From positions 1,116,001-1,180,000 of the forward strand of contig NZ_JADBEK010000001.1 of NCBI RefSeq assembly GCF_014873145.1: a stretch of 64,000 nucleotides of DNA. Direction: 5' to 3'. This stretch comes from Nonomuraea angiospora (GTDB taxonomy: Bacteria > Actinomycetota > Actinomycetes > Streptosporangiales > Streptosporangiaceae). A program made the translations under genes and the position numbers. Below the pieces are notes generated by a model. The model worked only from the letters and a program-made list of their open reading frames with translations. It was not told where the DNA came from and made no database searches. Of this stretch, positions 201-58,441 are shown one piece after another (the stretch's first letter is position 1; every line of letters starts with the position of its first letter).

Positions 201-279
201 GAGTGATACATGTGACACGGAGGGGCCGGGGCTGCTCGTCCGAGTCGGCGGTGCAGGGGAGAACGGCTGCGCCACCGGC

Positions 280-330
280 GCGTACCACGTGCGCAATCCC
301 GAGAAGCCGTCGCGCATGGAGCGGGGAAAC
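280..330 (+). pseudogene. ECF41 sigma factor C-terminal tail fragment
   Basis: The residues YHVRNPEKPSRMERGN closely match the last residues of the intact sigma factor at 54828-55736 (YAVRNPEKLARMERET), including the NPEK form of the ECF41 NPDKL motif. At DNA level the stretch from gtgcgcaatcccgagaag through gcgcatggagcggg is almost identical to 55680-55715. It is fused in frame to the histidine-kinase fragment just upstream. It is most simply a leftover of a duplicated or recombined copy of that sigma gene. Confidence 0.6.
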
Positions 331-359
331 CGCCGTGAGCGCCTGAGGCCGGGACGGCC

Positions 360-2920: not shown

Positions 2921-4345
2921 TCATGTCGCCGCGCTGAGCGGCGTCGCGATGGACTCCAGGCTCTTGCGCTCGGCCTTGACCCCGAACAGCAGCTCGACCA
3001 GCCCCGCCGCGATCATCACGATGCCGCCGATGGAGAACGCGAGCGCCGTGTCCCCGGGCACCCCGGTCTCGACCAGGGAGGCGAAGACGAGCGGGCCGGC
3101 GATGCCGCCGGCGGCGGTGCCGATCGCGAAGAAGAACGCGATGGCCAGAGCCCTGGTCTCCATCGGGAAGATCTCGCTGACGGTCAGGTACGCCGAACTC
3201 GCCCCGGCCGAGGCCACGAAGAGCACCACCGACCAGCACGCGGTCAGCGTGACGGCGGTCAGCAGGCCCTGGCTGAACAGCCAGGCCGTGCCCAGCAGGA
3301 GCAGCCCGGACCCGATGTACGTGGCCGAGATCATCGGGATCCTGCCCACGGTGTCGAAGAGGCGGCCGAGCAGGAGCGGGCCGAGGAAGTTCCCGACCGC
3401 GATGACGGCGAAGTAGTAGCCGGCATTCGTGTCGATCTTGAAGAAGGTGGTCAGGATCTGCGCGTACCCGAAGGTGATCGCGTTGTAGAGGAACGCCTGT
3501 CCGATGAAGAGCGACAGGCCGAGGATCGTACGTTTGGGATAGAGCGCCACCATCGTGTGGGCGATCCGGAGGAAACCGATGGACTTGCGCTGGTGCACGG
3601 TCACCGACTCCTTCGGCTCCGGCAGGTCGCCGCCGATCTGCCGCTCGATGCCGCCGACGATCTCCTCGGCCTCCTTCTCCTTGCCGTGGATGAACAGCCA
3701 GCGCGGGCTCTCCGGTACGTGCCGCCGTACCAGCAGGATCGCCAGGCCCAGCACCACGCCCAGGCCGAACGCGATGCGCCAGCCGATGTTCACCGGCAGG
3801 TCGCTCAGCAGCGGCACGGTCAACAGCGCGCCGCCGGCGGCGCCGAGCCAGTAGCTGCCGTTGATGATGATGTCGATGCGCCCCCGGTGGTGACTCGGGA
3901 TGAGCTCGTCGATGGCGGAGTTGATGGCCGCGTACTCGCCGCCGATCCCGAACCCCGTCATGAACCTGAACAGGAAGAACCACCACGCGTGGAAGGAGAA
4001 CGCGGTCATCAGGGTCGCCGCCAGGTAGACGATCAGCGTGATGAGGAAGAGTTTCTTCCTGCCGAACCTGTCGGTCAGCCAGCCGAAGAACAGCGCGCCC
4101 AAGCAGGCGCCGGCGACATAAAGCGCGGCGGCCAGGCCCGCGACCTGCGCCTGAGTGATCTCCAGGCCGCTGCCCGGCTTGGCGAGCTGCCCTGAGAGGT
4201 TGCCTACGATGGTGACTTCGAGCCCGTCGAGTATCCAGACGGTGCCGAGCCCTACGACGATCATCCAGTGCCAGCGGGACCAGGGAAGCCGATCAAGGCG
4301 CGCGGGCACTTTGGTGGTTATGGTGCCGGTTTCCACGTCGCTCAT
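2921..4345 (-). CDS. MFS transporter, sugar/metabolite porter type
   Basis: A 474-residue membrane protein with about 12 predicted helices. The A-motif GWLTDRFGRKK lies after TM2, RFMTGFGIGGEYAAI follows in TM4, and VPESPRWLF comes at the start of the central cytoplasmic loop. That set is characteristic of the sugar-porter/metabolite-H+ symporter branch of MFS (inner membrane, proton-coupled uptake or efflux). The substrate cannot be read from sequence. It lies 95 nt downstream of, and in the same direction as, the LuxR-type regulator, which may control it. Confidence 0.85.
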   Translation of the reverse strand: MSDVETGTITTKVPARLDRLPWSRWHWMIVVGLGTVWILDGLEVTIVGNLSGQLAKPGSGLEITQAQVAGLAAALYVAGACLGALFFGWLTDRFGRKKLFLITLIVYLAATLMTAFSFHAWWFFLFRFMTGFGIGGEYAAINSAIDELIPSHHRGRIDIIINGSYWLGAAGGALLTVPLLSDLPVNIGWRIAFGLGVVLGLAILLVRRHVPESPRWLFIHGKEKEAEEIVGGIERQIGGDLPEPKESVTVHQRKSIGFLRIAHTMVALYPKRTILGLSLFIGQAFLYNAITFGYAQILTTFFKIDTNAGYYFAVIAVGNFLGPLLLGRLFDTVGRIPMISATYIGSGLLLLGTAWLFSQGLLTAVTLTACWSVVLFVASAGASSAYLTVSEIFPMETRALAIAFFFAIGTAAGGIAGPLVFASLVETGVPGDTALAFSIGGIVMIAAGLVELLFGVKAERKSLESIATPLSAAT

Positions 4346-50597: not shown

Positions 50598-51928
50598 ATG
50601 TTGCCGAGTACATGAGACACGTCCCCGGCTGTGCCGCGTTCCCGACCGTCGACGCCCTCCACGACGAGCTGGACGAACTGACCGCCGCCCATCCCGACCT
50701 GGTGCGGTCGCGCCGCATCGGCGCTTCGCGGCTGGGCGACCCGCTGCACGCCGTGACGGTCGGCGACGGCCCCGCGGACGCGGTGGTCATCGCCGGACCG
50801 CACCCCAACGAGCCGGTCGGGGCCCTGACCGCCCTCGCGTTGGTCAAGCTGCTCTGCCGCGACCAGCGGCTGCGGACGGAGCTGGGCTTTCGCTGGCACA
50901 TCGTCGCGTGCGCGGACCCGGACGGAGCCAGGCTGAACGAGGGCTGGTACGGCAGGCCGGGCGACCGCCGCGCCTACGCCGAGCACTTCTACCGTCCCGG
51001 CCTGGCCGACCAGGTCGAATGGACCTTCCCGCTGGCCACTGCCGACTACTCCTTCGACCGTCCGTTGCCGGAGACGGCCGCGCTGATGCGCCTCATGGAC
51101 GAGGTACGCCCGTCACTGGTCTGCTCGCTGCACAACGGCGAGTACCAGGGCGCGTTCTTCTACCTCAACCGCCATGACGCGACGCTGGCCGAACGGCTGG
51201 CCGCCCTGCCCGGCCTGCAAGGGATCGGACTGCACCACGGGGAGCCGGAGCTGCCCGGCGCCGAACCGATCGTTCCCGCCGTCTACCTGACCCCGCCCGG
51301 CTCGCAGGTGGGCAGGGCTTTCGGCGCGGGCGGCAGCAGCGCCGACTACGCGGCCGCTTTCGGCGCGCTCCACCTGGTCACCGAGGTGCCGACCTGGTCC
51401 GACGAACGCGTGGCAGACCAGAGCGCCAGCGGCCGCCCGTACCGGGAGATCCTGGCCGGGGGAGCGGCGGCCAGGCGCGAGCTGATCGACACGATGCGGT
51501 CGGGCATGCGGGCCGTCGCCGGCGACCTGAGCGTGCGCTCGCCGTTCCGCCTCTCGACCGAGAGCACGCTGGAGACCTTCCGCAAACTCGGCGAGCTCGA
51601 AGAGACCGTGCCCGATCCGGACCGTATGGCCACGGTCGCCGAGGAGTTCGGCAACCGCCAGATGCTGCACCTGATGCGACTGCGCCTGCTCGGGACCTTC
51701 CTGCGCGCGCTCGACGCGGAGATCGCCGCGGGCAACCCGACCCCGGCCATCCGCGAGCAGCGCCGCCTGCTCGCCGAACGCTTCGAGACGTGGTACGGCC
51801 AGGCCGAGGCCGACCCGCCCGGCCCGCCGATCGAGCTGCGCAAGCTGGCCGCCGTCCAGCTGGGCGCCGTCCTGACCGCCGCCGCGCACACGGCACCGGA
51901 CCGCTCGCCGCCGGCACCGGCCTGTTGA
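50594..51928 (+). CDS. M14-family zinc carboxypeptidase-like protein
   Basis: A 444-residue protein. The M14 zinc ligands HxxE are in VVIAGPHPNEPVGALTALAL and the third His is probably in LVCSLHNGEYQGAFFYL. There is no signal peptide, so it is a cytosolic peptidase or amidohydrolase acting on a small substrate, e.g. succinylglutamate-desuccinylase-like. Divergent from TetR (gap 26 bp). The next gene starts 14 bp after its stop behind a GAGGAG site, so they share an operon. The exact start is uncertain; ATG 50612 lies in frame. Confidence 0.8.
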   Translation: MNVAEYMRHVPGCAAFPTVDALHDELDELTAAHPDLVRSRRIGASRLGDPLHAVTVGDGPADAVVIAGPHPNEPVGALTALALVKLLCRDQRLRTELGFRWHIVACADPDGARLNEGWYGRPGDRRAYAEHFYRPGLADQVEWTFPLATADYSFDRPLPETAALMRLMDEVRPSLVCSLHNGEYQGAFFYLNRHDATLAERLAALPGLQGIGLHHGEPELPGAEPIVPAVYLTPPGSQVGRAFGAGGSSADYAAAFGALHLVTEVPTWSDERVADQSASGRPYREILAGGAAARRELIDTMRSGMRAVAGDLSVRSPFRLSTESTLETFRKLGELEETVPDPDRMATVAEEFGNRQMLHLMRLRLLGTFLRALDAEIAAGNPTPAIREQRRLLAERFETWYGQAEADPPGPPIELRKLAAVQLGAVLTAAAHTAPDRSPPAPAC

Positions 51929-51942
51929 GGAGAAGCACCGCC

Positions 51943-52415
51943 ATGGACATCAAGACCGCGATCGCCGCCGAACGTCGCGAGCTGGCGCGGATGCTGGAGG
52001 ACCTGCCGACCGGCTGGCCCGTCAGGACGCGGCCCGCCTGTCGACGGCCCAACTGGTCGCCGCCATCCGGGACAACGCCCACCACCCCTGGAAGCCACCG
52101 GTCGGCGGCGTCACGGCGGCTCTGGGCCATGACGTCATCCACGGCCTGGACATCACCGTCGCCCTCGGCATCGACCGCCGCGTCCAGGAAGACCGCCTTC
52201 GCCCGCTCCTGGAGGCCATCACCCCCCGAACGGCGGCGTTCTTCGGCGCCGGCCTCGACGGCGTCGAGCTACGCGCCGACGACCTGGAGTGGTCCTTCGG
52301 CGCCGGCGCCCCAGTGACCGGTGCCGCGCAGGACCTCCTCCTGGTCGCCTACGGCCGCAAGCTGCCACCCGGACATCTCCACGGGCAGGCGAGCGACCGG
52401 TACGTCGCCACCTGA
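51943..52415 (+). pseudogene. Maleylpyruvate-isomerase-fold (MDMPI) gene with internal deletion
   Basis: The start, with SD GAGGAG, gives MDIKTAIAAERRELARMLED-LP. A different frame from about 52030 continues DAARLSTAQLVAAIRDNAHH, GHDVIHGLDITVALGI and ADDLEWSFGAGAP to the stop at 52413. In this DinB/MDMPI family about 40-50 residues, including the first metal-ligand helix, should separate the two parts. They are missing and the frame is shifted, so it is not functional. It lies in the M14 operon. Confidence 0.7.
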
Positions 52416-52450
52416 GCGAACAAGCCGATCACGGCGGCGACCGGCTCCGA

Positions 52451-52477
52451 TGTCACAGCCGGGTGGGCCATCTCGTC
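52451..52477 (+). promoter_or_regulatory. ECF41-type promoter of the SDR gene
   Basis: TGTCACA (52451-52457), 16 nt, CGTC (52474-52477). This is exactly the promoter described for ECF41 sigma factors. Its flanks (gatgtcacagccgggtgggc...ctcgtctcg) match the site at 55746-55772 nearly base for base. Confidence 0.85.
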
Positions 52478-52530
52478 TCGGGTCCGAAGGTGCCCGGAAG
52501 AACGCACCATCCCATAGCAAGGAGCTGGAC

Positions 52531-53298
52531 ATGAGCGAGCACACCACGCATCCGAAGATCGCGCTGATCACCGGGGCGAACAAGGGGATCGGCCGCGCGG
52601 CCGCCGAGCAACTCGCCGCGCTGGGCATGACGGTCCTGATCGGCGCCAGGGACCCGCGGCGCGGCGAGGAGGCCGCCGCGGCGGTGCGGGCGAGGGGCGG
52701 CGACGCGCACGCGGTCACCCTGGACGTCACCGACCCGGCCACCGCCCAGGCGGCCGCGGAGCAGGTCGAGGAGCGCTTCGGCCGCCTCGACGTGCTGGTC
52801 AACAACGCCGGCATCACCGGCTCCGGGCAGGTCACGCCCCTCGACGCCCACGACCAGATCCCCAGCTCCGTCGACCTGGACATGGTCCGGGCGGTGTTCG
52901 AGACCAACGTGCTCGGGGTGATCGCGGTGACCAACGCCATGCTGCCGCTGCTGCGGCGCTCGCCGGCGCCGCGCATCGTCAACGTCAGCAGCGCCGCCGG
53001 ATCGCTGACCCTCAACAGCGACCCGGACGGCCCGTTCACGGCGCTGCCGGCGTCGGCCGCGTACTCGCCCTCCAAGTCCGCGCTGAACGCGCTGACCGTG
53101 CAGTACGCCAATGAGCTGCGCAAGGACGGCATCCTCGTCAACGCGGCCGACCCCGGCTACGTGGACACGGAGATCAACAACCACAGCGGCTTCCTCACGA
53201 CCGCGCAGGGCGCCGCGATCCTGGTGCGCCTGGCCACGCTCGGCGCGGACGGGCCGACCGGCGGGTTCTTCAGCGAGAACGGCCCCATGCCCTGGTGA
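52531..53298 (+). CDS. SDR-family NAD(P)-dependent oxidoreductase
   Basis: A 255-residue classical SDR: nucleotide loop ALITGANKGIGRAAAEQL, NNAG in VNNAGITGS, catalytic Ser in NVSSAAGS, YxxxK as YSPSKSALNAL. SD AAGGAG upstream of ATG. It has its own ECF41-type promoter and is convergent with the FAD oxidase across a strong terminator. ECF41 loci usually pair the sigma with a COE gene; this SDR fits the oxidoreductase class. Confidence 0.92.
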   Translation: MSEHTTHPKIALITGANKGIGRAAAEQLAALGMTVLIGARDPRRGEEAAAAVRARGGDAHAVTLDVTDPATAQAAAEQVEERFGRLDVLVNNAGITGSGQVTPLDAHDQIPSSVDLDMVRAVFETNVLGVIAVTNAMLPLLRRSPAPRIVNVSSAAGSLTLNSDPDGPFTALPASAAYSPSKSALNALTVQYANELRKDGILVNAADPGYVDTEINNHSGFLTTAQGAAILVRLATLGADGPTGGFFSENGPMPW

Positions 53299-53303
53299 GA
53301 AAC

Positions 53304-53343
53304 GAAGCGGCCCCACGCACACTCCGTGCGTGGGGCCCGCTTC
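53304..53343. terminator. Strong bidirectional terminator
   Basis: GAAGCGG-CCCCACGCA pairs with TGCGTGGGG-CCCGCTTC (one base bulged) around cactccg. It lies 5 bp after the SDR stop and 8 bp before the convergent FAD oxidase stop. Confidence 0.85.
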
Positions 53344-53350
53344 GGTCGGC

Positions 53351-54691
53351 CTACTGAGGCCGGATGTTGTGGTTGTGGGCGAACAGGTTGCCGGGGTCGT
53401 ACTGGCGCTTGACCGCCGCGAGCCGCTCATAGGTCCCCGCCGGATAGACGGCGGCGACGTCCTCCTCGGTGGCGGAAGCCAGGAAGTTCGCGTAGGCGCC
53501 GTTGACGTGGGGTGCGAGCCGCGCCCAGATCGCCTCCAGAGCAGGACGGGCGGCCTCCACGACCGGCTCGGGACCCAGAACGGTCGTCACGAACATCAAC
53601 TCCGCCCCGCGATGCGCGTAGGCGGTGGCGTCGTCGGCGACTCGGGACACCGCACCGCCGACGCTGCGAACGGCGATGAGCGGCGACCCCTCCGAGGCCC
53701 CGACCTCGGCGAGGATCCGGAGGACCTCGGGCACCGACTCCTCGCCGGCGAAGGCGCTCCGGGTGACGAGCCGGATGCCGGGCGGCGGGATCGCGCCGTC
53801 CACGAGCGTGTCCGCATAGGGCTTCAGCGCCACGTCGTCGTCGATCACCGTGCCGAGCCGGCGGATCGGGTCGATGGCCCGCGCGGCGAGCTCCGGGTCG
53901 TCGCCGTCGAAGGCGACGAAGATCTCGACCGGCGCCTGGGGCCCGCCGGCGAAGGGGTTGGCGAAGCTCGCGATGGAGGTGAGCTCTTCGGGGGCGGTAC
54001 GGAGGTGGTCCGCCCAGCCCTGGAGCACGGCGGCCGCCTCCGAAGCCGGGAAGGCGACCCTGCCGTGGAAGACGTCCGTCGTCGGGTGTGCCGCGAACTC
54101 GAAGGCGGTCACGATCCCGAAGTTGCCGCCGCCGCCGCGAACCGCCCAGAACAGCTCCGGGTTCTCCTCCGCGCTCGCGCGCACCACCTCTCCGCCCGCC
54201 GTGACCAGCTCCGCGGCGACCAGGCTGTCCAGGGCCAGGCCGTACTTCCTGACCTTCCAGCCGATGCCGCCGGTCAGGGTCAGCCCGCCGACGCCGACGC
54301 TCTTGGTGTCGCCCGAGGAGATCGCCAGGCCGTGCGGGGCCAGGGCGGTCGCGACCTGGCCCCAGGTGGCGCCGCCGCCGATCCGTACGAGGTGCCGCTC
54401 CTTGTCGATGACCTCCACCCGCGCGAGGCCGCCGAGGTCGATCACGATGCCGTCGTCGTTGGTGCCGAAGCCCGCGAAGGCGTGGCCGCCGCCGCGTACG
54501 GACAGCGGAAGCCCGCTGCCGGCGGCGAACCTGACGCCCGCCCGCACGTCCGCGACGCTCCTGGGCCGCAGGACATAAGCTGGACTGCCCGAAGCCAGAA
54601 CCGAGCGGCTGGCCGGCCCGTACTCCGCCGCGCCCGGCTCGATGATGTCGCCGCCGAAGTCGCGGCGCAGGGTCTCAAGTGCTGATGTCAT
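53351..54691 (-). CDS. FAD-binding oxidoreductase (BBE-like)
   Basis: A 446-residue PCMH-type flavoprotein. PLSVRGGGHAFAGFG has the His that links FAD; the cysteine of the second link is replaced (SSGDTKSVGVGG). ELFWAVRGGGGNFGIVTAFE and the C-terminal RQYDPGNLFAHNHNI complete the BBE pattern. So a mono-covalent flavoenzyme. The upstream DNA carries TGTCACA-N16-CATC, an ECF41 promoter with one mismatch, ending close to the ATG, so the mRNA may be leaderless. No gene-specific substrate can be read. It differs from the 1117 gene by lacking the extra N-terminal module. Confidence 0.9.
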   Translation of the reverse strand: MTSALETLRRDFGGDIIEPGAAEYGPASRSVLASGSPAYVLRPRSVADVRAGVRFAAGSGLPLSVRGGGHAFAGFGTNDDGIVIDLGGLARVEVIDKERHLVRIGGGATWGQVATALAPHGLAISSGDTKSVGVGGLTLTGGIGWKVRKYGLALDSLVAAELVTAGGEVVRASAEENPELFWAVRGGGGNFGIVTAFEFAAHPTTDVFHGRVAFPASEAAAVLQGWADHLRTAPEELTSIASFANPFAGGPQAPVEIFVAFDGDDPELAARAIDPIRRLGTVIDDDVALKPYADTLVDGAIPPPGIRLVTRSAFAGEESVPEVLRILAEVGASEGSPLIAVRSVGGAVSRVADDATAYAHRGAELMFVTTVLGPEPVVEAARPALEAIWARLAPHVNGAYANFLASATEEDVAAVYPAGTYERLAAVKRQYDPGNLFAHNHNIRPQ

Positions 54692-54699
54692 GAACACGA

Positions 54700-54726
54700 G
54701 ATGCCGGCCGGCCGATCCTTGTGACA
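54700..54726 (-). promoter_or_regulatory. Probable ECF41-type promoter of the FAD oxidase
   Basis: On the minus strand TGTCACA (54726-54720), 16 nt, CATC (54703-54700), one mismatch from CGTC. The ATG at 54691 lies 8 nt beyond, consistent with a leaderless transcript. Confidence 0.55.
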
Positions 54727-54827
54727 GCGCGGGGTACGTGAGGTGTGTCACAACGGCCAAGGCGTCACAGAACGGCGGGGTCCGGCGTCTGGTGGGTGAC
54801 ATAGTCGCGAACGAACAGGAGCCACCC

Positions 54828-55736
54828 ATGCCGCACACCGCACCCGAAGACCGCGGCGGGGACATGAGCCCGGACGCCGCCACCGAGGCGTTCCTCACCC
54901 ACCGCAACCTGCTGTTCACCGTCGCCTACGAGATGCTCGGCTCGGCCGCCGACGCCGAGGACGTCCTGCAGGAGACCTGGTTGCGGTGGGCGGGCGTCGA
55001 CCTTGACGAGGTGCGGGATCAGCGCGCGTACCTGGTCCGGATCGCCACCCGGCAGGCGCTGAGCAGGCTGCGTACGCTGGGCCGGCGCAAGGAGTCCTAC
55101 GTCGGGCCGTGGCTGCCCGAGCCGTTGCTGACCACGCCTGACGTGGCCGAGGACGTCGAGCTGGCCGACAGCGTCTCGATGGCGATGCTGCTGGTGCTGG
55201 AGACGCTTCAGCCGACCGAGCGGGCGGTGTTCGTGCTGCGCGAGGTGTTCGACCTGGACTATGACGAGATCGCCGAGGCGGTCGACAAGAGCCCGGCCGC
55301 CGTACGCCAGATCGCGCACAGGGCACGGGCGCACGTGGCCGCGCGCCGGCCGCGCGGCATCGTCTCCCCGGCCGAGACCCGGGACGCGCTGGAGGCGTTC
55401 CAGCGGGCGGTCGAGACCGGCGACCTGCAACGCCTGCTCGACATCCTCGCGCCGGACGTCGTCCTGCTGGCCGACGGTGGCGGGATCAGGCAGGCCGCGC
55501 TGGCGCCCGTCGTGGGGGCCGACATGGTGGCCTCCGTGCTGGGCAGGATCCGCCCCACGCAGTCGGTGCAGGCGGCGCAGGTCAACGGCCACCCGGCGCT
55601 GGTCCTCCGGCTGGACGGCGAGATCGACACCGTCATGGCGGTGCGCATCGAGGAGGGCCTCATCACCGGGCTCTACGCCGTGCGCAATCCCGAGAAGCTG
55701 GCGCGCATGGAGCGGGAGACCGCCCTGCACCGCTGA
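54828..55736 (+). CDS. ECF41-family RNA polymerase sigma factor (SigJ-like), copy 1
   Basis: A 302-residue sigma factor with SD CAGGAG before ATG 54828. Sigma-2 is about 24-90 (AYEMLGSAADAEDVLQETWL). The ECF41 linker motif YVGPWLPEP is at 91-99 and sigma-4 about 120-172. The SnoaL-like C-terminal domain is at about 190-290 with DGGG and NPEKL (287-291, usual NPDKL). In this group the C-terminal domain modulates the sigma instead of an anti-sigma factor. A TGTCACA is also present at 54746-54752 but with no CGTC at 16 nt. It probably drives the three promoters listed here. Confidence 0.93.
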   Translation: MPHTAPEDRGGDMSPDAATEAFLTHRNLLFTVAYEMLGSAADAEDVLQETWLRWAGVDLDEVRDQRAYLVRIATRQALSRLRTLGRRKESYVGPWLPEPLLTTPDVAEDVELADSVSMAMLLVLETLQPTERAVFVLREVFDLDYDEIAEAVDKSPAAVRQIAHRARAHVAARRPRGIVSPAETRDALEAFQRAVETGDLQRLLDILAPDVVLLADGGGIRQAALAPVVGADMVASVLGRIRPTQSVQAAQVNGHPALVLRLDGEIDTVMAVRIEEGLITGLYAVRNPEKLARMERETALHR

Positions 55737-55745
55737 GCCCGGCGA

Positions 55746-55772
55746 TGTCACAGCCGGGCGGGCTGTCTCGTC
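55746..55772 (+). promoter_or_regulatory. ECF41-type promoter of the epimerase-sigma operon
   Basis: TGTCACA (55746-55752), 16 nt, CGTC (55769-55772), 43 nt before the epimerase ATG. It begins 10 bp after the first sigma's stop codon. Confidence 0.85.
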
Positions 55773-55814
55773 TCGGTTGCGAAGTCGGGTTCTGAGTTCG
55801 GAAAGGTGATGACT

Positions 55815-56747
55815 ATGCGGGTGTTCGTGGCCGGTGGGAGCGGGGTTCTGGGGCGGCGGCTGGTGCCGCTGCTGGTGGCCAGGGGGCACCAGGTGACGGC
55901 TTCGACGACGAGCGCGGCCAGGACGGGAGTGCTGGAGCGGCTGGGCGCCGAGGCGGTCGTGATGGACGGGCTGGACGCGGTGTCGGTCGGCGAGGCGGTG
56001 GCCAAGGCCCGGCCGGACGCGATCGTGCACCAGATGACCGCAATCTCCGTGGCGCACGCCGGCAAGCCCGACATGAAGCACATGGATCGGTGGTTCGCCG
56101 GCACCAACCGGCTGCGTACCGAGGGGACGGACCACCTGCTGGCCGCCGCCGAGGCGACCGGCGTGACCGGCTTCGTCGCCCAGAGCTACGGCGCCTGGAA
56201 CGGCATCCGCGAGGGCGGCTGGGTGAAGACCGAGCAGGACCCGGTGGACCCGATGACGGGGACGCCGGCTGAGCCCGGGATGAAGGCGATCGCCCATGTC
56301 GAGGACGTGGTCGTCAAAGCAGGGGGCGCGGTCCTGCGCTACGGCTGGTTCTACGGGCCGGGCGCCACCGACGACCTGGTCGAGCCCGTACGCAAGCGGC
56401 AGTTCCCGGTCGTCGGGAGCGGCGCCGGCCACTGCTCGTGGGTGCATCTGGACGACGCCGCGGGCGCCACCGTCCTGGCCGTGGAGCAGCGGGCGAGGGG
56501 AGTGTTCAACATCGTCGACGACGAACCGGCCCCGGCCGGCGAGTGGCTGCCCTACCTGGCCGAATGTGCGGGCGCCAAGCGGCCGATGCGGGTCCCCGCC
56601 TGGCTGGCCCGGCCGCTGGCCGGGGACGTGGCGGTGACGATGATGACCGAGGGGCGCGGCTTCTCCAACGCCAAGGCCAAGCGGGAGCTCGGCTGGGAGC
56701 TGCGCCACCCCTCGTGGCGGCAGGGCTTCAAGGAGGAGCTGGCATGA
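55815..56747 (+). CDS. NAD(P)-dependent epimerase/dehydratase (COE partner)
   Basis: A 310-residue extended-SDR protein. MRVFVAGGSGVLGRRLVPLL is the dinucleotide loop; the active-site region shows AQSYGAWNGIREGGWVKTEQ with Tyr but a degenerate YxxxK, common in NmrA/epimerase-like atypical SDRs. ATG 55815 is preferred (GGAAAGG 8 nt upstream); two earlier in-frame codons exist. The stop overlaps the second sigma's ATG, so both are translated together. Epimerases are one of the three COE partner classes of ECF41 sigma factors. Confidence 0.87.
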   Translation: MRVFVAGGSGVLGRRLVPLLVARGHQVTASTTSAARTGVLERLGAEAVVMDGLDAVSVGEAVAKARPDAIVHQMTAISVAHAGKPDMKHMDRWFAGTNRLRTEGTDHLLAAAEATGVTGFVAQSYGAWNGIREGGWVKTEQDPVDPMTGTPAEPGMKAIAHVEDVVVKAGGAVLRYGWFYGPGATDDLVEPVRKRQFPVVGSGAGHCSWVHLDDAAGATVLAVEQRARGVFNIVDDEPAPAGEWLPYLAECAGAKRPMRVPAWLARPLAGDVAVTMMTEGRGFSNAKAKRELGWELRHPSWRQGFKEELA

Positions 56748-57667
56748 CGCGCGCCGAAGAGTTCGAGGAGCTGCGGCCGCTGCTGTTCTCGATCGCCTAC
56801 CGGATCCTCGGCAGCGTGAGCGAGGCCGAGGACGCGGTCCAGGAGACCTGGCTGCGCTACCAGACCTCCCCGGCGGAGCCCGTCTCGGCCAAGTCCTTCC
56901 TGGCGGCGGTGGTGACCCGGATCGCCATCGACGTGCTGCGCTCGGCCCGCGTCCGGCGCGAGGAGTACGTCGGGCCGTGGTTCCCCGAGCCGCTGCTCGC
57001 CGACCCGTACCAGGACCCGGAACGCTCGGCGGAGCTGGCCGACTCGCTGTCCATGGCGGCCCTGCTGCTGCTGGAGCGGCTCAGCCCGCTCGAGCGCGCG
57101 GTCTTCGTGCTGCGGGAGGTGTTCGGGTTCGGCTTCGGCGAGGTCGCCTCGGCGGTGGGACGTTCGGAGGCGGCCTGCCGCCAGCTCGCGGCGCGGGCGC
57201 GCCGCCACATGGACGCGGGCCGGCCCCGGTTCGAGGCCGACCGCAGGGAGCGGGAGGAGCTCGCCGAACGGTTCTTCGACGCCTTCCGCGAGGGCGACGT
57301 CGAGGGGCTGCGGGCGCTGCTCGCCGCCGACGTGCACCTGGTGGCCGACAGCGGCGGCAAGGCCCCGCAGTGGGGTACGGGCGTCTTCGGCGCCGAGAAC
57401 GTCGTCCGGGTCATCGCCACGCTCGCCCCGCTGTTCGCCCGGATCGGGGGCGTGGTGGAGCCGCACCAGATGAACGGCCAGCCGGGCGCGATCTTCCGCG
57501 ACCGGGACGGCAAGGTCGTCAACACCTGGACGCTCGACGTCCTCGACGGGCAGGTCCAGGCGATCCGTACGGTGCTCAACCCCGACAAACTTGAGCACGT
57601 GGGCCCGGTGGCGGACGCCTGGGCGACCCTCCGCGAGGCGACCCGGGCCCGCCGACCGGCGGACTGA
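56744..57667 (+). CDS. ECF41-family sigma factor (SigJ-like), copy 2
   Basis: A 307-residue paralog of the 54828 gene. Sigma-2 is about 8-72. YVGPWFPEP at 75-83 (linker motif) precedes sigma-4 at about 102-155 (LSPLERAVFVLREVFGFGFG). The C-terminal SnoaL-like domain has DSGGK and NPDKL. Start overlaps the epimerase stop (ATGA), so it would be transcribed from the ECF41 promoter at 55746, a positive-feedback or relay arrangement with copy 1. Which sigma recognises which promoter is not separable from sequence. Confidence 0.92.
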   Translation: MTRAEEFEELRPLLFSIAYRILGSVSEAEDAVQETWLRYQTSPAEPVSAKSFLAAVVTRIAIDVLRSARVRREEYVGPWFPEPLLADPYQDPERSAELADSLSMAALLLLERLSPLERAVFVLREVFGFGFGEVASAVGRSEAACRQLAARARRHMDAGRPRFEADRREREELAERFFDAFREGDVEGLRALLAADVHLVADSGGKAPQWGTGVFGAENVVRVIATLAPLFARIGGVVEPHQMNGQPGAIFRDRDGKVVNTWTLDVLDGQVQAIRTVLNPDKLEHVGPVADAWATLREATRARRPAD

Positions 57668-57744
57668 CCGCGAGAGCCGGCCGCCCCCGCGCCTGGGTCA
57701 GCCGGCTCACCGGGCGGACGGCACCGCCGGCTCGGCCGCGCCCC

Positions 57745-58065
57745 GTCCACGGGCGCGCCCGACCACAGCGCCCTGCCCATCGCCGGCGACGACGCGCAGG
57801 CGAAGGCGGAGGCCACTCGGCTGCTGGACGTCCTCGGTCACGACGCGGTGGACCTCGGCACGCTCGCCGAAAGCTGGCGCAGCGAACCGAACACCCCGGT
57901 CTACATCCGGCCCTACCTCGGCGAACTCCCCGCCATGGGCGTGGCGGACTTCCTCCGCTGGACGCTCCGGAACCCCGGTATCGCCATCCCCGCGGCGCAG
58001 GTCAGCGAGCTCGTCGAGGCCGCGGTACGCCGATCGGCGGGCGAGGCGAGGCCACCGAGCGCCGC
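57745..58065 (+). pseudogene. F420-dependent NADP-reductase-like fragment, 5'-truncated
   Basis: The frame reads DHSALPIAGDDAQAKAEATR, then LLDVLGHDAVDLGTLAESWR and SEPNTPVYIRPYLGELP. This is the C-terminal half of NADPH:F420 reductase-like NAD-binding proteins (LPIAGDD...DVG.L.ESWR...PxY). The dinucleotide-binding N-terminus is missing and the 3' end runs into other debris. Confidence 0.6.
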
Positions 58066-58079
58066 GACTGGCTGTCCTT

Positions 58080-58441
58080 CCTGCCGCCGCTGTAGCCGCC
58101 GCCGTGCAGGTGGATCAGGACCGGGGCCCCGGTGGGCCGGGAGCGGTGGCCGTAGAGGTCCAGCAGGTTGCGCCTGCCGGCCGTGCCGTACGGACCAGGC
58201 CCGCCATGGTCAGGGCCGCCGCCCCCGCGATGATCGGCGAGGTCAGGTCGCCCTGGACGAAGGCCGGCACCGAGGCGGCCAGGAGCCAGGCCGACACCAC
58301 GAAGGGCAGCTCGTTGACGGCCAGGCCGAGCCGGAAGCTCAGCCCGGCCAGGAGCCGGGTACGACCGGGCGCGGCCAGCGCGAAGAAGGTGCAGATCGCG
58401 ACGAGGACCAGCGTGATCAGGTACCCGAAGGGCAGGTTCAT
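58080..58441 (-). pseudogene. Membrane-anchored alpha/beta hydrolase, 5' fragment with deletion
   Basis: ATG 58441 overlaps the DUF6069 stop and starts MNLPFGYLITLVLVAICTFF with three hydrophobic segments. After a frame break near 58200 the hydrolase region LYGHRSRPTGAPVLIHLHGG-GY appears, carrying the HGGG oxyanion motif. The serine elbow and the rest are lost at 58080. The family is the actinobacterial HSL-like esterase with N-terminal membrane domain. Confidence 0.55.

Follow-up and report, generated by a model that had tools for sequence, protein, structure and literature searches.

The loci of ECF41, a family of extracytoplasmic function (ECF) sigma factors, have been described (Wecke et al. 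2012, PMC3426412) as combining the promoter motif TGTCACA-N16-CGTC with a partner gene for a carboxymuconolactone decarboxylase (CMD), an oxidoreductase or an epimerase (together COE). In COE-ECF operons the promoter lies before the COE gene in 97 of 107 cases and divergent pairs have promoters before both genes (36 and 41 of 55), and the same paper names a WLPEP-type motif and gives a single promoter consensus (PMC3426412). Control of ECF41 sigma factors through a SnoaL-like C-terminal domain has been reported (PMC8999054, PMC8103513), sigJ regulates sigI in M. tuberculosis (PMC4821874, citing Homerova 2008), and the -10 base preference of ECF sigma factors is set by loop L3 (PMC6372665); in the passages of PMC9205884 consulted, ECF41 is confined to the references. 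Here, we describe a locus in a 64,000-nucleotide stretch of Nonomuraea angiospora DNA (the window; G000:C1:1116001-1180000 in a single contig of 13.09 Mb), where two ECF41 genes, sigma-1 and sigma-2, stand with genes for a short-chain dehydrogenase/reductase (SDR), a flavin adenine dinucleotide (FAD)-dependent oxidase and an epimerase, behind promoter-like sites of two distinct classes.

All four sites of the locus have their -35 in common and are divided by the extended -10, which reads ..CCGG-NRTC-TnnTG before the FAD oxidase and sigma-1 (class 1) and ..GTCT-CGTC-YCGGG before the SDR and the epimerase-sigma-2 operon (class 2). This arrangement suggests, and we consider it probable, that the locus houses two complete ECF41 modules, insulated from one another and self-activating, each with a promoter class of its own. 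In module 1, sigma-1 would start its own gene and the divergent FAD oxidase from class-1 promoters once its C-terminal SnoaL-like domain, following the control described in the papers above, lets RNA polymerase be bound; in module 2, sigma-2 would start the SDR and the epimerase-sigma-2 operon from class-2 promoters, raising its own level. Both sigma factors would read the same -35, with the extended -10 keeping them apart, so that each uses its own class and not the other. As an own-class site precedes each sigma factor's own transcription unit, feedback is plausible for both.

A first-pass annotation of this DNA had placed exact TGTCACA-N16-CGTC sites at 52451 and 55746 and a one-mismatch CATC copy on the minus strand, and had put three enzyme genes and a second sigma factor, more than the usual one sigma factor with one partner, behind ECF41-type promoters. 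All of this stands: the two exact sites are the only ones in the window, the CATC copy lies at 54726-54700 (-), and a further one-mismatch copy, missing from that annotation, precedes sigma-1 at 54763-54789 (+), its CGTCACA -35 occupying a place where many relatives have TGTCACA. With up to two mismatches the window holds 16 matches against 19.9 expected, thus no excess of the motif, so that only exact and context-supported sites are meaningful. Exact sites averaged 0.03 per window under 150 permuted -35 words, only one of which reached two, and a matrix scan of the 64 kb (-35 with up to one mismatch) found exactly four sites above threshold, compared with two hits in total over 20 resampled 64-kb sequences (first-order Markov). 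The genome-wide scan proposed by the same annotation gave 10 exact TGTCACA-N16-CGTC sites, against two for the pattern read backwards, three of them class 2 by matrix, one (L009; loci and genomes carry our L and G numbers) weakly class 1 and six neither. A recent promoter duplication as the source of the near-identical spacers at 52451 and 55746 was considered and is not needed, because GGGCTGTCTCGTCTCGG is close to the class-2 consensus.

The two classes recur at related loci, which were searched for exact TGTCACA plus N[A/G]TC with a spacer of 15-17 bases in the best 80 of 167 named sigma-1 loci and in 30 sigma-2 loci of 59 matches. At least one site was present in 69 of the 80 sigma-1 loci and 25 of the 30 sigma-2 loci. 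The 105 sigma-1-locus sites have the -10 tetramers CATC (39), CGTC (29), TGTC (20), GATC (14), GGTC (2) and AATC (1), a spacer of 16 in 103 cases, mostly CCGG at the spacer end and mostly TnnTG after the tetramer; CATC is the commonest class-1 -10 and no damaged copy. All 36 sigma-2-locus sites have CGTC, in the context GTCT-CGTC-YCGGG, with spacers of 16 or 17 (18 each). Two of the 105 sigma-1-locus sites, in L041 and L085 and both with a spacer of 17, fall on the class-2 side. For class matrices of 18 columns, 97 of the 105 sigma-1-locus and 23 of the 36 sigma-2-locus sites served as the training set, from which Nonomuraea jabiensis, the window and, at 17 loci selected because they have an SDR homologue, the SDR-side sites were excluded; leave-one-out classification assigned 96 of 97 class-1 and 23 of 23 class-2 sites correctly. 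For the held-out window sites the log-ratios (positive for class 1) are -27.4 bits for the SDR, -29.1 for the epimerase, +29.4 for the oxidase and +22.2 for sigma-1, values that do not support the earlier assignment of all sites to one promoter type.

Across the genus, the strict class-1 pattern is found in 45 of 54 genomes and the strict class-2 pattern in 26 of 54, with one hit in all for the first pattern reversed and none for the second. Class 1 accompanies sigma-1 relatives across many genera. The sigma-2 relatives that class 2 accompanies belong to Nonomuraea and to a second family, represented by four genomes of one genus; in a phylum-wide search of 396 evenly drawn genomes (E<=1e-130) these four were the only ones with sigma-2 apart from the strain's own, and their sigma-2 relatives (72-77% identity) have class-2 sites in every case (4/4). 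Within the first 175 residues, 32 positions separate the sigma-1 and sigma-2 clades, and the pairs R66/K50, R71/A55, Q76/I60, R80/V64, L84/A68 and R86/V70, picked by eye in or near regions 2.3-2.4, are candidates for the residues responsible.

The enzyme genes were then compared by the class of site each carries; many of the sigma-linked loci scored overlap those used for matrix training, and the loci without a sigma gene do not. For the SDR, the class goes with that of the adjoining sigma factor. The comparison covered 30 loci of the genus, the window among them. A sigma-2 relative (67-89%, in some cases truncated where the locus ends) is present in 14, and 13 of these have a site, always class 2; the other, L186, has none at one mismatch and, as it is the same locus as L176, a class-2-like site at two mismatches. 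Both SDR loci with sigma-1 (L200, the same locus as L046, and L209) are class 1, and the window SDR is class 2. The 13 loci without a sigma gene comprise four of class 1 (L184, L185, L199, L205), three of class 2 (L187, L197, L201), the ambiguous L208, and five in which no site was found (L183, L188, L189, L193, L206). In named genera, SDR homologues adjoining sigma-1 are class 1, both at 83-84% identity (L089, Actinopolymorpha; L105, Micromonospora) and at 43-45% (L071, L077, L103). On an SDR tree of 35 rows, with L186 labelled class 2 from its weak site, both the class-1 and the class-2 label require three or more changes on strong branches.

The FAD oxidase and the epimerase keep to one class each. 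Of 40 oxidase matches, 30 loci were examined, giving 26 class 1, none class 2 and four without a site, and in nine of the 26 the locus, reaching about 1.5 kb to either side, contains no ECF41 gene; for five of these (G002, G025, G030, G033, G053) the matches listed include no sigma-1 relative within 4-8 kb either. All 28 epimerase matches were scored, with 24 class 2, none class 1 and four without a site; three of the 24 sites lie about 515 bases upstream, and at three of the 24 loci (G001, G004, G034) an ECF41 gene is absent. As a side observation, L218, L219 and L222 carry oxidase or epimerase orthologues with class-matching sites and no ECF41 gene in the locus, and are candidate trans targets, with a sigma-1 relative lying about 6 kb from L219.

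DNA comparison with chosen loci (matches over 78% identity counted) suggests how the two modules came to share a locus. Seven sigma-1 loci, selected among the 21 (of 80) in which an FAD oxidase match was found, align with the window over 53347-53353 to 55736-55745 and not outside that block. In the sigma-2 locus of G034 the SDR, epimerase and sigma-2 are contiguous, matching window 52450-53298 and 55800-57196 at 88-90%, with that genome's own sigma-1 locus about 108 kb away, and the other four of the five sigma-2 loci match from 55739-55745 to 57657-57670. The window therefore unites two blocks that live apart in relatives, the oxidase/sigma-1 block sitting between the SDR and the epimerase of the sigma-2 block; module 1 would have been spliced into module 2 in the lineage that this strain shares with N. 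jabiensis. Among the matches listed, only G000 has intact sigma-1 and sigma-2 genes within 2 kb of each other, G013 and G041 have pairs separated by 6-8 kb, and N. jabiensis (L041 = G022), of the same genus as the window, is the nearest relative by sigma-1, which is 93% identical. It shares the window's gene order, with oxidase, sigma-1 and epimerase intact; its SDR is internally deleted with a promoter spacer of 12 bases, and sigma-2 is a stub (L041 4149-4490 and 7922-8000). Downstream, window 57721-58064 matches just the last part of an N. jabiensis open reading frame (ORF; L041 8975-9721), NAD(P)-binding oxidoreductase-like by eye, for the front of which the DNA comparison found no match in the window.

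The features of the locus are collected in the table.

Table. Features of the proposed two-module ECF41 locus, in window coordinates
Feature	Position	Strand	Details
Class-2 ECF41 promoter-like site before SDR	52451..52477	+	Exact TGTCACA-N16-CGTC; class-2 score 18.4, class-1 -9.1
SDR family oxidoreductase, 255 aa	52531..53298	+	Pfam adh_short 161 bits; predicted sigma-2 target
Terminator-like hairpin between converging SDR and FAD oxidase	53309..53337	.	13-pair stem, T-rich tail on minus strand
Sigma-1 module (FAD oxidase + sigma-1), found alone in relatives	53347..55745	.	84-90% DNA identity, 7 chosen relatives
BBE-type FAD-dependent oxidase, 446 aa	53351..54691	-	Pfam FAD_binding_4 + BBE; predicted sigma-1 target
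Class-1 ECF41 promoter-like site before FAD oxidase	54700..54726	-	-10 CATC; class-1 score 22.6, class-2 -6.9
Class-1 ECF41 promoter-like site before sigma-1	54763..54789	+	CGTCACA-N16-CGTC; class-1 score 18.4
Sigma-1, ECF41 sigma factor, 302 aa	54828..55736	+	TIGR02957 370.2 bits
Class-2 ECF41 promoter-like site before epimerase-sigma-2 operon	55746..55772	+	Exact motif; class-2 score 22.1
NAD-dependent epimerase/dehydratase-like protein, operon's first gene	55815..56747	+	Pfam Epimerase 51 bits
Sigma-2, ECF41 sigma factor, 307 aa	56744..57667	+	TIGR02957 364.2 bits

That both sigma genes encode full ECF41 proteins, as first annotated, is borne out by scores over the NCBIfam SigX4 cut-off of 323.25 and by nearly full-length TIGR02957 alignments, with Pfam Sigma70_r2 and r4_2 in each, so that region 2, region 4 and a long C-terminal extension are present in both. 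The C-terminal motifs of ECF41 go by the names DGGGK and NPDKL. Sigma-1 has YVGPWLPEP, DGGGI and NPEKL and sigma-2 has YVGPWFPEP, DSGGK and NPDKL, which gives each a WLPEP-type linker and C-terminal motifs that are close variants of the named ones, not identical to them. SnoaL_2 reaches 25 bits in sigma-2, under its own cut-off of 27, and was not reported for sigma-1 in the Pfam scan; the best PDB match of sigma-1 is M. tuberculosis SigJ (5xe7). The four-base overlap of the epimerase stop and the sigma-2 start, also annotated before, is ATGA at 56744-56747, and the epimerase ORF is also open from GTG 55806. Oxidase, epimerase and SDR are all COE-type partners. No anti-sigma gene was found among seven proteins scanned between 49953 and 57667, and Rfam returned nothing at gathering score within 51900-58200.

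At the level of the transcripts, the hairpin between the converging SDR and oxidase genes has an RNA fold z of -4.7, and shuffles give 1.1 such scan matches per region. A terminator scan of the 78 bases between sigma-1 and the epimerase found no terminator-like site, so that transcripts may read through into sigma-2. The RNA fold in front of the epimerase has a z of -1.1, no significant gain over shuffles. The oxidase start codon lies eight bases past its -10 (window 54691-54726), and the window lacks about 25 bases of leader, a possible ribosome site among them, that N. jabiensis L041 has; because of this the oxidase mRNA is probably leaderless.

The two sigma factors share their cell with many relatives. 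A search with sigma-1 at E<=1e-3 gave 35 matches in the genome, and the best 20, both window sigma factors included and counted as ECF41-like by similarity only, are 38-100% identical and near full length except L029 (residues 17-245). At 9.60 Mb, a paralogue of sigma-1 and a gene that is CMD-like by eye form a divergent class-1 pair; a sigma-2 paralogue at 6.29 Mb, 77% identical to sigma-2, has a class-2 pair, and a second one at 7.47 Mb (L021) has no site. Cross-talk is therefore likelier among paralogues of one class than between the two sigma factors of the window. Elsewhere in the genome, 1399301-1407052 (L022, L029, L032) holds three ECF41-type matches in 5 kb, one of them partial, with TGTCACA-N16-TGTC sites. 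In L026 a class-1-like site at 3067 (-) precedes an ORF that is CMD-like by eye and an ECF41 sigma gene. The tail fragment of a third ECF41 sigma factor that had been proposed at 280-330 is real: window 247-352 is a relic of a sigma-1-type gene tail, 247-347 matching the tail of the 9.60 Mb paralogue best (82% over 102 bp) and 288-352 matching that of sigma-1 itself (85% over 65 bp).

Of the relay or feedback first suggested for this locus, in which sigma-1 could switch on sigma-2, feedback stays plausible for each sigma factor through its own-class site, and a relay by promoter recognition looks unlikely, since class 2 accompanies sigma-2 relatives. Such a relay, with sigma-1 recognising all four sites, would draw on their identical -35 type, on the ECF41 precedent of sigJ and sigI (PMC4821874) and on G001 and G004, which keep a class-2 epimerase with sigma-1 relatives and without a close sigma-2; we nonetheless give it little credence, as the -10 classes differ sharply, class 2 occurs at none of the 30 FAD oxidase loci, and the epimerase stays class 2 in both scored loci where it follows sigma-1 (the window and N. 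jabiensis). Strict class-2 sites are also rare without sigma-2 (1 of 12 genomes, against 25 of 42 with it; Fisher p 0.002), although this co-occurrence is weak evidence and largely reflects linkage, the majority of the sites being at the sigma-2 locus, and with the looser matrix G001, which lacks sigma-2 at E<=1e-100 and has a class-2 epimerase, limits the test. A reading by descent only, whereby promoters and sigma factors travelled together and any ECF41 sigma factor in the cell reads both classes, would fit the proximity of most sites to their sigma genes and the 20 ECF41-like genes of the genome; the change of SDR class along with its sigma neighbour and the unlinked genes, nine oxidases staying class 1 and three epimerases class 2, speak against it, and we give it hardly more credence than the relay. 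One-way read-through, in which transcripts from the sigma-1 promoter continue into the epimerase and sigma-2, is compatible with two insulated modules and is a possibility we hold with considerable doubt: sigma-1, epimerase and sigma-2 are collinear, the scan found no terminator-like site in the 78-base gap, and a Catenulispora metagenome-assembled genome (L110) has the same order, CMD-like<-sigma-1->epimerase->sigma-2, its epimerase preceded, by eye, by a class-2-like -10 with a poor -35. However, high-GC terminators can lack T-runs and so be missed by the scan, the intact order beyond the window occurs only in L110, given the N. jabiensis stub, and no epimerase at E<=1e-30 was found in the other 78 of the 80 named sigma-1 loci (some cut by contig ends).

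Several observations weigh against two insulated modules. At the threshold used, 11 of the 80 sigma-1 loci and five of the 30 sigma-2 loci have no site, and for four of the nine 'unlinked' oxidases (G028, G035, G045, G052) a sigma-1 relative is listed at a distance of 4-8 kb. A class-1-like site also stands before the operon of an ECF41 sigma factor (L026) that shares just 39% identity with sigma-1. The class-2 epimerase persists in G001 and G004 without any sigma-2 at E<=1e-100, and in N. jabiensis beside sigma-1 after the loss of the local sigma-2, which makes a paralogue, or even sigma-1 itself, a possible reader of class 2. As promoters and adjoining sigma genes are inherited together, conservation alone is no proof of which sigma factor reads which promoter, and the SDR swaps and unlinked genes reduce this problem of co-inheritance and do not remove it.

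Compared with the ECF41 loci described in PMC3426412, the locus has the same motif, COE partners and promoter placement in a COE-ECF operon and a divergent pair, and differs in that two motif classes track two sigma clades, that two class-1 and two class-2 target units are predicted, two per sigma factor instead of one gene or operon, and that two modules are spliced. Like the sigJ-sigI cascade, as far as PMC4821874 relates it, the locus has two ECF41 sigma factors, one of which, in that cascade, reportedly regulates the other's gene; here, the promoter of sigma-2 is of a class found at none of the FAD oxidase loci scored, which are the sigma-1-type targets. As in the loop-L3 switching outlined in PMC6372665, related sigma factors can differ in the -10 base accepted, whereas the difference here spans the spacer end and the discriminator, and the residues responsible are candidates only. 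A literature search found no paper on ECF41 in Nonomuraea, and the portions of the literature consulted contained no statement of two -10 classes in ECF41; the 2021 ECF reclassification was not among them, and subgroup motifs may already be in print.

Twenty ECF41-like sigma genes in one genome and a single consensus raise the question of how paralogues avoid cross-firing. A general answer, which we put forward tentatively and think less likely than not, is that actinobacterial ECF41 paralogues may share a -35 and have insulated regulons through clade-specific extended -10 elements acting in trans, that oxidoreductase genes may swap regulons by changing promoter class, and that the circuits here may be nested, with one-way read-through from sigma-1 to sigma-2. 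The two classes are a directly testable code with candidate residues, and the locus offers a ready pair of circuits in one place. The two classes also suggest that ECF41 sigma factors have unlinked targets.

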